Source: Hippea maritima DSM 10411
GTDB taxonomy: Bacteria; Campylobacterota_A; Desulfurellia; Desulfurellales; Hippeaceae
Length of the DNA stretch: 64,000 nucleotides
Direction of reading: 5' to 3'
Assembly: GCF_000194135.1 (NCBI RefSeq)
Contig: NC_015318.1
Location: 324,501-388,500 of the forward strand
Shown here: one piece after another, positions 21,038 through 24,593 of the stretch
Position numbering within the stretch: position 1 is the first letter of the stretch
Layout: each line of letters opens with the position of its first letter
Translations under genes and position numbers: made by a program
Notes under the pieces: generated by a model
What the model saw: the letters and a program-made list of their open reading frames with translations, nothing else
Database searches by the model: none
Told to the model about the DNA's origin: nothing

Positions 21038-22372
21038 CTATATTATTTGTTCTATTTGTGTTATATGTTCCTTTTTGGTGAATATGACAGCTCTGTCGTT
21101 TTCCTTTATTGTGAAGTTTCCATCCGGTATTATACTTTCACCGTTTCTGTTTATCGCAACTACAAGACTCCCTTTTGGTAAGTCCAACTCTTTTAGTTTT
21201 TTGTTTTTTATCTTTGAATTATTTGAGACGACAAATTCGAGCGCTTCTGCTTCACCTCCAAATATTGAGTAGACCCCTACTATCTTGCCCTTTCTAATAA
21301 AGCGCAGTATGCTGTTTACTGTAGCGAGTTTAGGGCTTATTACTATATCTATGTTGAGTTTGTTAGACATGGCTATATAATTTGCCTTATCGGCCAAAGC
21401 TATAGACCTTTTAACACCCAGATTTTTTGCATATATGGCAGATAGTAGATTTATTTCTTCATTGTCAGTTGCTGTTATTGCCACATCAAAATCTCCTATA
21501 TTTTCTTCTTCAAACAACTCTGCATCATCTGCATCACCATGGATTACAATGGCTTTTTTGCATATACTGGCAACCTTTTTACATCGCTCATAATCTTTGT
21601 CTATGAGTTTTATGTTTCTCTTTCTGCCAGAAAGACCTTTAGCTATAGTTAGACCAATATTGCCAGCACCAAATATGGCTATGTCTTTTATCCTTATTTT
21701 GGTTTTACCTGCAAGTTCAACTATATCATTTATAGTATCACTTTTTGCTACAACATATAGATAATCACCTTCTTTTACCTCAATAAAACCACTTGGTATT
21801 ATAAGCTCTCCTTCTTCCCTTTTTATAGCAGAAATTATGAAATTCTTATTTACTCTGGTTTTTATCTCGGAGATAGTTTTATTTTTAAAAAGTGAATCCT
21901 CATCGATATGTATACCTCTCATTTGTATATCGATATCAAAGGTTATAACATCTGTTGATGCACCCAGGTTTACGGTATTTATTATAGTTTTTGCTGCCTC
22001 TATCTCTGGATTTATGATGAAATCTATTCCTATATTTTTAAACGACGAAAAACTCTGGGTGTATTGTATATTTCTTAGTCTTACTATTTTCTTTTCTATA
22101 TTAAAATTGTTGGCCGCTACAAAGCATGAAACCATATTAACCTCATCTGAGTCCGTAACAGCTATGAACATGTCTGCTTTATCGCAGCCAGCTTCTTTTA
22201 ATACATTAACATCAGTTGCCTCACCCTGTACTACAAGACAGTCGAGCCTTTCGCTTGCGAAGTTGGCTTTATCTACATCTTTTTCTATTATAGCTACATC
22301 CTTTTTTTCCTCACTTAGATGTTTTGCTATGTGAAAGCCAACCCCGCCAGCTCCAGCTATTACTATATTCAT
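21038..22372 (-). CDS. trkA: Trk potassium uptake regulatory subunit TrkA (two RCK units)
   Basis: This 444-residue cytoplasmic protein has two Rossmann RCK_N domains, each followed by an RCK_C domain. The nucleotide motifs are GAGGVGFHIAKHL at the N-terminus and GAGNIGLTIAKGL near residue 230, each followed by an acidic strand end (IIEKD, LIDKD). It binds NAD(H)/ATP and gates TrkH. The start codon shares a base with the fbp stop (TAATG), and the gene ends 6 bases before trkH. Confidence 0.95.
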   Translation of the reverse strand: MNIVIAGAGGVGFHIAKHLSEEKKDVAIIEKDVDKANFASERLDCLVVQGEATDVNVLKEAGCDKADMFIAVTDSDEVNMVSCFVAANNFNIEKKIVRLRNIQYTQSFSSFKNIGIDFIINPEIEAAKTIINTVNLGASTDVITFDIDIQMRGIHIDEDSLFKNKTISEIKTRVNKNFIISAIKREEGELIIPSGFIEVKEGDYLYVVAKSDTINDIVELAGKTKIRIKDIAIFGAGNIGLTIAKGLSGRKRNIKLIDKDYERCKKVASICKKAIVIHGDADDAELFEEENIGDFDVAITATDNEEINLLSAIYAKNLGVKRSIALADKANYIAMSNKLNIDIVISPKLATVNSILRFIRKGKIVGVYSIFGGEAEALEFVVSNNSKIKNKKLKELDLPKGSLVVAINRNGESIIPDGNFTIKENDRAVIFTKKEHITQIEQII

Positions 22373-23358
22373 TAGCCGTATTTTTCCCTGAATTCTAAAT
22401 ATTTCTCAACTTCATATTTTGATCCTATAATTAGAGGTACCCTCTGATGCAGACTTTCTGGTTTAATGTCTAATATTCTCTGTCTGCCGTCTGTTGCCAT
22501 TCCGCCAGCATTTTCCACTATAAAGGCCATGGGATTTGCCTCATAAACCAGCCTGAGTTTACCGTTTTTATTTTTGGAGTCTTCAGGGTATAAGAAAACC
22601 CCGCCTTTTAGTAGGTTTCTATGAAAATCTGCAACAAGTGAGCCTATCCATCTTAGTGTATATTGTCTGTCTGGGTGTTGTTTTATGAAGTTTACATACT
22701 CTTGAATTCCCTTAGGCCATCTAAAGTAATTGGATTCGTTTATGCTGTATATTTTGCCATATTCTGGTATCTTTATATCTGGATGGGAAAGTAAAAACTC
22801 ACCTATGCTTGGATCGAGTGTAAACCCATTTACACCCTGACCTGTGGTATAAACGAACATAGTGCTTGAACCGTAGATTACATACCCTGCACAAACAAGA
22901 CTCTGACCAGCTTGAAGTAGGGATTTTTCACAATCATTGTCGTCTAAGCGTTTATATATGCCAAATATTGTACCTATACTCACGTTTACATCAATATTGC
23001 TTGAGCCATCAAGTGGGTCAAAAACCACAGCGTATTTACCTTCTAGGCTCTTATCACTTACAGGTAGCATTTCTTCTATTTCCTCAGACGCCATTGCGCA
23101 AACCTTACCTGTAGGGTCCAGTGCTTTTACCATCTGTTCATTTGAATATACATCGAGTTTTTGCTGAGTTTCACCATGTACGTTTTTACTTTCAACACTC
23201 CCCAAGATGTTTACAAGTCCAGCTTTGTTTACTTCTCTTGAAATTATTTTAGCGGCAAATGCTATCTGTTCCAATATTAGTGTAAAATCACCAGCAGCCT
23301 CAGGGTATTTTCTCTGCTGTTGTAGTATAAATCTACTCAAACTTACAGCCTCAGACAT
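22372..23358 (-). CDS. fbp: Fructose-1,6-bisphosphatase class 1
   Basis: This gluconeogenic enzyme hydrolyses fructose-1,6-bisphosphate to fructose-6-phosphate. The 328-residue protein has the metal-binding VVFDPLDGSSNID signature and the sugar-binding segments GSLVADFHRNLLKGG and NPMAFIVENAGG. The start at MSEAVSLSRF was preferred over an ATG 45 bases upstream because GGGAGG lies 6 bases before it and family members begin here. Its stop overlaps trkA, so carbon and potassium genes share a transcript. A separate promoter for it appears at 23394-23422. Confidence 0.95.
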   Translation of the reverse strand: MSEAVSLSRFILQQQRKYPEAAGDFTLILEQIAFAAKIISREVNKAGLVNILGSVESKNVHGETQQKLDVYSNEQMVKALDPTGKVCAMASEEIEEMLPVSDKSLEGKYAVVFDPLDGSSNIDVNVSIGTIFGIYKRLDDNDCEKSLLQAGQSLVCAGYVIYGSSTMFVYTTGQGVNGFTLDPSIGEFLLSHPDIKIPEYGKIYSINESNYFRWPKGIQEYVNFIKQHPDRQYTLRWIGSLVADFHRNLLKGGVFLYPEDSKNKNGKLRLVYEANPMAFIVENAGGMATDGRQRILDIKPESLHQRVPLIIGSKYEVEKYLEFREKYG

Positions 23359-23393: not shown

Positions 23394-23422
23394 ATGTTAT
23401 CATTATGGAAGTCGTTTATCAA
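23394..23422 (-). promoter_or_regulatory. Candidate sigma-70 promoter for fbp-trkA-trkH
   Basis: On the minus strand TTGATA and TAACAT are separated by 17 bases, about 35 bases before the fbp ATG. It lies downstream of the U-tract that ends the candidate small RNA, so fbp need not be read from the RNA's promoter. Confidence 0.5.
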
Positions 23423-23429
23423 TACAAAC

Positions 23430-23571
23430 AAAAAAGGAGTGTGTGCCTCTCTTTAGAAGTGGGTCTTAATTAGAGCGGATACATTGGAGGGCAAAAAGAG
23501 AGGAAAAAATGAAGAGATGTGTGAACCCTTGCGGGTTCTTCTTGCAGGAAGGCTACCACCCCCACACTCGG
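23430..23571 (-). ncRNA. Candidate stand-alone structured small RNA, family unknown
   Basis: About 142 bases on the minus strand fold into a closed structure. The ends pair (GAGTGTG with CACACTC: plus positions 23563-23569 and 23437-23443). Inside lie a hairpin GAACCC-GCAA-GGGTTC with a GNRA tetraloop (23523-23538) and a 9-bp stem CCTCTCTTT/AAAGAGAGG (23446-23454, 23495-23503) around a 40-base loop. Six U residues (23430-23435) follow the closing stem as in a terminator. A promoter at 23578-23605 would start transcription right at the closing stem. The loops are rich in C and U (for example CCCTCC) and could pair with Shine-Dalgarno sequences. 6S RNA has a similar closed layout, but I cannot confirm that; SRP RNA and tmRNA motifs are absent. 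Confidence 0.55.
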
Positions 23572-23577
23572 CAGGTA

Positions 23578-23605
23578 AGTTTAATAAAAAGAACAGAGAA
23601 GTCAA
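23578..23605 (-). promoter_or_regulatory. Candidate sigma-70 promoter for the small RNA
   Basis: On the minus strand TTGACT and TAAACT are 16 bases apart. A start 7 bases downstream falls at about 23571, the first bases of the closing stem of the candidate RNA. Confidence 0.5.
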
Positions 23606-23807
23606 GAAAAATCTTAAAAAAAAATAACAAAAATTTTTTATACAGTCTCTAATGTCTAATAAAAGCAAGTTTTTTTGATATAAAAGTTTTTACTTTTTCT
23701 CGATTTTTTATATGAGACTACTGTAATTTCAATATAAAGAACAATTTGAACAAAAAACTGGAATATCCCAGCTTGAAAAAAAACTTTGGTTTTGATAGTT
23801 TTTAGCT
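23606..23807. other. AT-rich intergenic stretch with no clear feature
   Basis: Very AT-rich sequence between the small-RNA promoter and the permease gene. A TTGAAA/GATAGT pair just before the permease start has only a 15-base spacer, so no confident promoter is called. No coding frame, tRNA or strong hairpin was seen. Confidence 0.4.
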
Positions 23808-24593
23808 GTGAGAAGGGATTTGTTGTTTTGGCTATCCGTAGGTTACATAATTATTGTAGTTGTAAGTGCTGTCTTTGCAAACTATATAGCCCCCTATGAC
23901 CCTTATGCTATAGACCCAAACAATATATTATCACCGCCGAGTCTCCATCATCTGTTTGGAACCGATAGATTAGGCAGGGATCTATTTTGTCGGGTTATTT
24001 ATGCTGGAAGAATATCCATTGAGGTTTCTTTGATTGCTGTGGGAATATCTACACTGATAGGTGTAGCATACGGTGCTGTTAGTGGTTATTTTGGTGGTAT
24101 TGTGGATACCTTAATGATGAGATTTGTTGATGTTATGCTCACGTTTCCTGTATTTTTTTTAATTCTGGCCATAGTGGTTGTCTTAGGGCCCAACATTTTA
24201 AATGTGATGGTTGTAATAGGTTTAACAGGTTGGATGGGTATTGCAAGGATTGTAAGAGCCGAGAGTTTAAAGTTAAGGGAGCTGGGTTATATTCAGGCTG
24301 CCAAGCTTTTAAAAAAAAGCGATGCCTATATTTTGATTAGGCACATAATACCAAATTGTTTATCACCTGTTGTAGTGTATGCGACTTTGGGTGTGGGTTC
24401 TGCTATACTTGCCGAGTCTGCGCTGAGTTTTTTAGGCCTTGGGGTTCAACCCCCTACAGCCAGTTGGGGAAGTTTACTTTCTGAGGGTAAAGATGTTATT
24501 GAGGTTGCCTGGTGGATGAGCTTTTTTCCAGGAGTTGTTATATTTTTAACTGTTATATCGTTTACGATATTAGGCGAGAAACTTAAAAGATAA
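23808..24593 (+). CDS. Peptide-type ABC transporter permease (DppC/OppC family)
   Basis: This 261-residue membrane protein has five to six membrane segments. The N-terminal PYDPYAIDPNNIL and HLFGTDRLGRDLF segments are hallmarks of OppC/DppC, and the EAA loop is seen as AAKLLKKSDAYILIRHIIPN. It would form half of an importer for peptides or nickel. No cognate OppB, binding protein or ATPase is adjacent; a compatible ATPase gene lies alone at 36.2 kb. The GTG start has a weak ribosome site. The stop overlaps rodA by one base (TAATG), so it leads an operon with cell-shape and RNA genes. Confidence 0.88.
   Translation: MRRDLLFWLSVGYIIIVVVSAVFANYIAPYDPYAIDPNNILSPPSLHHLFGTDRLGRDLFCRVIYAGRISIEVSLIAVGISTLIGVAYGAVSGYFGGIVDTLMMRFVDVMLTFPVFFLILAIVVVLGPNILNVMVVIGLTGWMGIARIVRAESLKLRELGYIQAAKLLKKSDAYILIRHIIPNCLSPVVVYATLGVGSAILAESALSFLGLGVQPPTASWGSLLSEGKDVIEVAWWMSFFPGVVIFLTVISFTILGEKLKR

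Follow-up and report, generated by a model that had tools for sequence, protein, structure and literature searches.

Does the region between fbp and a divergent ABC permease gene in Hippea maritima, a hot-vent bacterium, encode a small RNA of its own, and if so, of what kind? The window analysed is a stretch of 64,000 nucleotides from its genome, a single contig of 1,694,430 bp, in agreement with the published H. maritima MH2T genome (1,694,430 bp; PMC3156395). The first-pass annotation of this window had proposed a promoter, a closing stem, a GNRA-capped hairpin and six U residues upstream of fbp, and we found all of these on the minus strand. Together they outline a predicted small RNA gene of about 141 nt at 23430-23570 (minus strand), with the 5′ end near 23570 and the 3′ end in the U run. 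We infer these ends from the promoter and the U run; RNA positions are numbered from C1 (23570), counting downwards on the minus strand. The locus lies on the minus strand, flanked by fbp (22372-23358) and by the divergent permease gene (23808-24593). Between the start of the latter and the sRNA promoter, the minus strand also carries a terminator-like palindrome, AAGCTGGGATATTCCAGTT, followed by a T run (23755-23774). As a separate observation, the stretch TTGAGATGAAAAGCATGTTGTTTTTCTTAAACTC occurs about ten times in identical form in the same genome (e.g., at G000:C1:409849, 904698, 1145937 and 1665153), and is presumably part of a repeated, insertion-sequence-like element.

Transcription of the putative gene would start from a promoter at 23578-23605 (minus strand) with a −35 TTGACT, a 16-nt spacer and a −10 TAAACT. 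This element was kept in 12 of 12 genomes bearing a homologue, where CTTGAC(T/A)T...TA(C/T)TAAACT stands at a near-constant distance from the RNA 5′ end; it would be a conserved promoter of the sigma-70 type. A similar promoter, TTGAAC...GTTTTTATTAAACT, was noticed outside the window at G000:C1:1419076, before a metF-like gene, hinting at a possible shared control with the sRNA. At its other end, the unit closes with six U residues immediately after the closing stem (23430-23435, minus strand), presumably a terminator tail, and this segment is U-rich in all 12 genomes.

Homologues immediately preceding fbp were found in 12 genomes belonging to three genera, g1 (Hippea), g3 and g4, all of one family (f1). 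The blastn search over 61 genomes detected the whole unit in G004 (92% identity) and G008 (73%), and only its 5′ part in other Hippea and in two further genera, while a text search of the relatives' loci showed that every complete locus has the unit in full, from GAGTGTGGG to CCCRCACTC. A covariance model (R1) was seeded with three sequences, all from the other genera; it picked up the Hippea copies with scores of 34-51 bits (E 6e-4 to 3e-7), which provides an independent check since Hippea was outside the seed. The same model added copies in G011 and G014, so that all 12 genomes scored at least 34 bits; G014 appears to be the genome from which the seed sequence L047 came, as its RNA sequence is identical. 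With a second model (R2) made from the 12 sequences and run on 290 genomes, the 12 copies scored 67-110 bits and everything else 22 bits or less, and neither model gave a convincing copy outside the family in this set. Matches of R2 at 18-22 bits in G009, G041, G182, G256 and G274 were not accepted as copies; those in G009, G041, G256 and G182 were C/U-rich chance matches devoid of the promoter or P1. A thirteenth copy, in G002, is a 5′ fragment cut by the contig end after 58 nt, and two genomes were left out of the count, G007 because its contig ends inside fbp and G012 because the fbp contig is short upstream.

A coding function was considered and rejected. The ORFs on both strands are not conserved and no conserved peptide emerged from either strand across the relatives; moreover, the indels among the relatives' copies do not come in threes. 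G003 and G006 (loci L135 and L136) have in common, on the strand opposite to the RNA, a 43-aa ORF (MSVGP...GPPPHS) that is absent from the other relatives.

The structural support comes from two elements, referred to here as P1 and P2. The closing stem P1 brings together the 5′ and 3′ ends of the RNA: in H. maritima GAGTGTG (23569-23563) pairs with CACACTC (23443-23437), or, in RNA numbering, GAGUGUG(GG) 2-10 with (CA)CACACUC 126-134. The 5′ strand, GAGUGUGGG (23561-23569, minus strand), is invariant in the 12 genomes; the 3′ strand, CACACACUC in H. maritima and CCCRCACUC in the relatives (23437-23445, minus strand), forms standard pairs with it in 107 of 108 cells. Most relatives have 9 bp, GAGUGUGGG/CCCRCACUC, and H. 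maritima has one G-A mismatch. Because P1 hardly varies, covariation says nothing about it, and its support consists in the invariance of two segments that are separated by about 115 nt of poorly conserved sequence.

Downstream of the 5′ strand of P1 there is a conserved motif CCUNC(C), here CCUUCC (23547-23552, minus strand; RNA positions 19-24), and then the hairpin P2, GAACCC-GCAA-GGGUUC (23523-23538, minus strand; RNA positions 33-48), which covaries. In an alignment where P2 was placed by eye (A7), 58 of 60 cells are paired; every one of the five pairs shows double compensatory changes, and 25 cells are changed on both sides. The hairpin has a covariation score of 0.436, compared with 0.126 ± 0.026 for shuffled controls and at most 0.085 for slid ones. 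The figures from a model-made alignment (A6), seeded on the three sequences of the other genera, are fairer, as P2 was hand-placed in A7: double changes occurred at 4 of 4 P2 pairs, and 97.3% of cells pair. A P2-type hairpin was found in all 12 genomes when only about 2 of 12 would be expected from shuffled segments. Its loop is of the GNRA type in H. maritima, G004, G008, G011 and G014 and of other types in the remaining relatives. Thermodynamically, G003 and G006 favour a competing hairpin, which brings the P2 probability to zero or near it.

Conservation of the stems was thus borne out for the closing stem and the hairpin, whereas the third stem did not pass the same check. This 9-bp inner stem, which had been proposed together with its 40-base loop, is indeed present in H. 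maritima, where CCTCTCTTT (23495-23503, minus strand; RNA 68-76) can pair with AAAGAGAGG (23446-23454, minus strand; RNA 117-125). Beyond H. maritima and G004 neither arm is conserved: H. maritima forms all 9 pairs and G004, 92% identical to it, forms 8, while the other ten relatives retain only 2-7 of 9. The region between P2 and the 3′ arm (23455-23522, minus strand) is best described as a long, mostly open C/U-rich segment, which has 62-75% C+U across species and a poorly conserved sequence. The folding energy did not exceed chance: the 166-nt minus-strand segment gave −35.7 kcal/mol vs. −32.7 ± 3.8 for the shuffled sequences (z −0.79), 37 of 200 shuffles were as stable, and the opposite strand gave a z of +0.57. 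What goes beyond chance is provided by the relatives, which keep the promoter, P1 and P2, the latter with compensatory changes.

Taken together, the order promoter-P1-CCUNCC-P2-open strand-P1-U run is kept in 12 genomes of three genera, in support of a unit that is self-contained and transcribed apart from fbp, and the features of a stand-alone sRNA gene (its own promoter, a 3′ U run, no coding capacity and a conserved structure) are all present. We consider it highly probable that this is a real small RNA gene; the gene, its strand, P1 and P2 are well supported, and its transcription and exact ends are deduced from the sequence. A regulatory site acting at the DNA level, shared by fbp and the divergent permease gene, in which the palindromes just look like stems, would account for the invariance of the P1 strands, as expected of a binding site. 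This explanation is very improbable, as P2 covaries as RNA, the promoter, stem and U run all point in the same direction, and in g3 and g4 the permease gene is not beside the RNA.

To which class might such an RNA belong? The Rfam 15 covariance search, covering 6S and the other families, yielded no family above its gathering score at the locus, in line with the view that the RNA is new; tmRNA and the other Rfam families are excluded by the same result. The idea that it could be a diverged 6S RNA did not survive. The resemblance is that of a length of about 140-190 nt, paired 5′ and 3′ ends and an own promoter; unlike 6S, the Hippea RNA shows no conserved distal stem that would enclose a central bubble. 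The 6S model (RF00013) found nothing here, either at gathering or at E ≤ 10, nor at E ≤ 3 in the loci of nine relatives, whereas an ordinary 6S gene is located elsewhere in the same genome (G000:C1:1461978-1462158, 89.2 bits), and every other genome of the family likewise has 6S at a separate locus of its own. The likelihood of a 6S origin is therefore practically nil. The small bacterial SRP RNA was rejected on similar grounds, given that RF00169 has no match at the locus and the SRP RNA sits elsewhere (G000:C1:601687-601786, 61.1 bits). Bacterial Y RNAs have an end-to-end stem and a pyrimidine-rich internal loop, and the Hippea RNA shares with them such a stem and a pyrimidine-rich interior, but it has no Rfam match, and no Ro60/TROVE gene (PF05731) was detected in the H. 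maritima genome, and this class was rejected.

A protein-binding RNA of another kind, in which P1 and CCUNCC would recruit a protein (RNA polymerase, as 6S does, or some other) and so sequester it, deserves attention because P1 is kept nearly letter for letter in three genera, beyond what pairing needs, and CCUNCC is conserved as well. We regard it as improbable: a genuine 6S gene exists elsewhere, a distal stem that would form a 6S-type central bubble is missing, Ro60 is absent, and tblastn with E. coli CsrA as the query, a weak test, returned nothing credible for CsrA.

The neighbourhood of the gene bears on whether it acts on fbp in cis. The downstream neighbour is fbp in all 12 genomes. 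The upstream one differs (names of neighbours were assigned by eye from the sequences): Hippea has the divergent permease gene in this place, g3 has a ferritin-like gene that follows a trpB-like one, G011 and G014 have oxidoreductase subunits, and G015 has a sensor-kinase-like ORF. Since this neighbour varies by genus, the sRNA is not part of an upstream operon, and the linkage is specific to fbp. At the fbp locus of G009 (genus g2) the sRNA is missing and a trpB-like gene directly precedes fbp; the loci of G016-G018 (family f2) lack it too, with fbp directly after other genes. In G009 (L155), the trpB-like gene adjoins fbp at the place where in g3 the ferritin-like gene and the sRNA stand between the two, and it looks as if these had been inserted or lost together.

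Such strict linkage, kept despite upstream genes that differ from genus to genus, together with the absence of the RNA where fbp directly follows other genes, leaves room for a cis-acting upstream RNA of fbp: transcripts from its strong promoter would mostly end at P1 and the U run, with read-through into fbp in some cases (attenuation). Variants of this explanation include a switch between P1 and an internal CCCAC, a bound factor, or transcriptional interference with the fbp promoter. Like 5′ leader attenuators, the RNA immediately precedes the same gene in every genome that carries it and has a stem with a U run behind it. Furthermore, the GUGGG of the 5′ strand of P1 has a second possible partner in the internal CCCAC (23459-23463, minus strand), and the corresponding GUGGG/CCCRC pairs could form in 58 of 60 cells. 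On the other hand, this helix has 5 bp vs. 9 for P1, and its columns scarcely vary, so that it gains no covariation support; neither a compact, conserved aptamer-like core nor a conserved antiterminator was seen, and Rfam offered no leader match.

The structure of the fbp region itself also speaks against a leader. As previously claimed, fbp has a predicted separate promoter beyond the unit, TTGATA-17-TAACAT at 23394-23422 (minus strand), downstream of the U run. The pattern TTGAT(A/T)-17-TANNNT was matched in 8 of 12 genomes and recognized by eye in G010 and G015, being weaker in G001 and G004. The gene, coding for fructose-1,6-bisphosphatase (nearest named relatives in Hippea and other Desulfurellaceae or Desulfurellales MAGs), likely starts with MSEAV at 23358 (minus strand). 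The longest ORF begins upstream, with an ATG at 23403, ahead of the −10 of the fbp promoter, but an annotation from 23403 would be wrong, as the relatives' starts match the equivalent of 23358. The presence of an own fbp promoter downstream of the RNA in most species favours a stand-alone sRNA gene over a leader. We conclude that the cis explanation, its variants included, is less likely than not, though the strict linkage lends a role in cis some weight. Quite improbable is a combined, lineage-specific switch in which the invariant 5′ GUGUGGG would choose either the 3′ P1 partner, resulting in termination and a free sRNA, or the conserved internal CCCRC, resulting in read-through into fbp. 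If true, the same gene would yield a C/U-rich sRNA acting in trans as well as a conditional leader for the gluconeogenic fbp.

Our preferred explanation is a stand-alone sRNA of about 141 nt acting mainly by base pairing in trans. Most probably, it would be transcribed from the minus-strand sigma-70-type promoter up to the U run, before the fbp promoter, and its 5′ and 3′ ends would pair as P1; P1 and P2 would then protect and present the long open C/U-rich strand, which may pair imperfectly with purine-rich stretches of mRNAs in trans without the help of Hfq. In FsrA, RoxS/RsaE and the Helicobacter RepG, C/U-rich loops base-pair with mRNA leaders that are rich in purines or in G, and RNAs of this kind can work without Hfq. 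The Hippea RNA can be likened to them, by description only, in its open C/U-rich strand and U-run end, but differs in that its ends close the whole RNA and that no target signal was obtained. As to Hfq, it was not detected in H. maritima: the PF17209 match reached 11.7 bits, below the cut-off, and contained stops.

The proposal that the C/U-rich segments are specifically suited to pair with Shine-Dalgarno sequences was not upheld. Against 1647 predicted gene starts, the open strand gave 751 interactions below −20 kcal/mol, and its dinucleotide shuffles gave 689-847; since the shuffles pair with gene starts equally well, C/U-richness alone explains the complementarity. Among 537 orthologs of H. 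maritima and G008 (800 kb of the latter; the control shuffled 3-base blocks, not dinucleotides), the best was the rplT-like g0281 with a z of −6.5, and the shuffles reached −6.55 and −6.3. Nor did the fbp mRNA stand out: in the eleven species whose start could be used (G011 was left out), 20-72% of background genes pair as strongly, so that fbp ranks in the middle. These results count against the trans explanation, as do the poor conservation of the open strand, unusual for a seed-based regulator, and the position of the gene directly before fbp, which trans action would not require. Weighing this evidence, we give the whole reading, a stand-alone sRNA acting mainly in trans, about an even chance of being correct; trans pairing as the main function, taken by itself, is a tentative assignment held with slightly less than even confidence.

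New lineage-specific sRNAs are common, and the RNA considered here seems to represent a new family, confined to the sulfur-reducing vent bacteria of the Hippea family. Among the papers searched, we found no sRNA described for this family and no paper on noncoding RNA in Hippea maritima. With this finding, a lineage in which Hfq was not detected gains a conserved, probably non-coding gene along with a covariance model, and the sRNA that it may encode is tied by position to fbp, a gene of gluconeogenesis.
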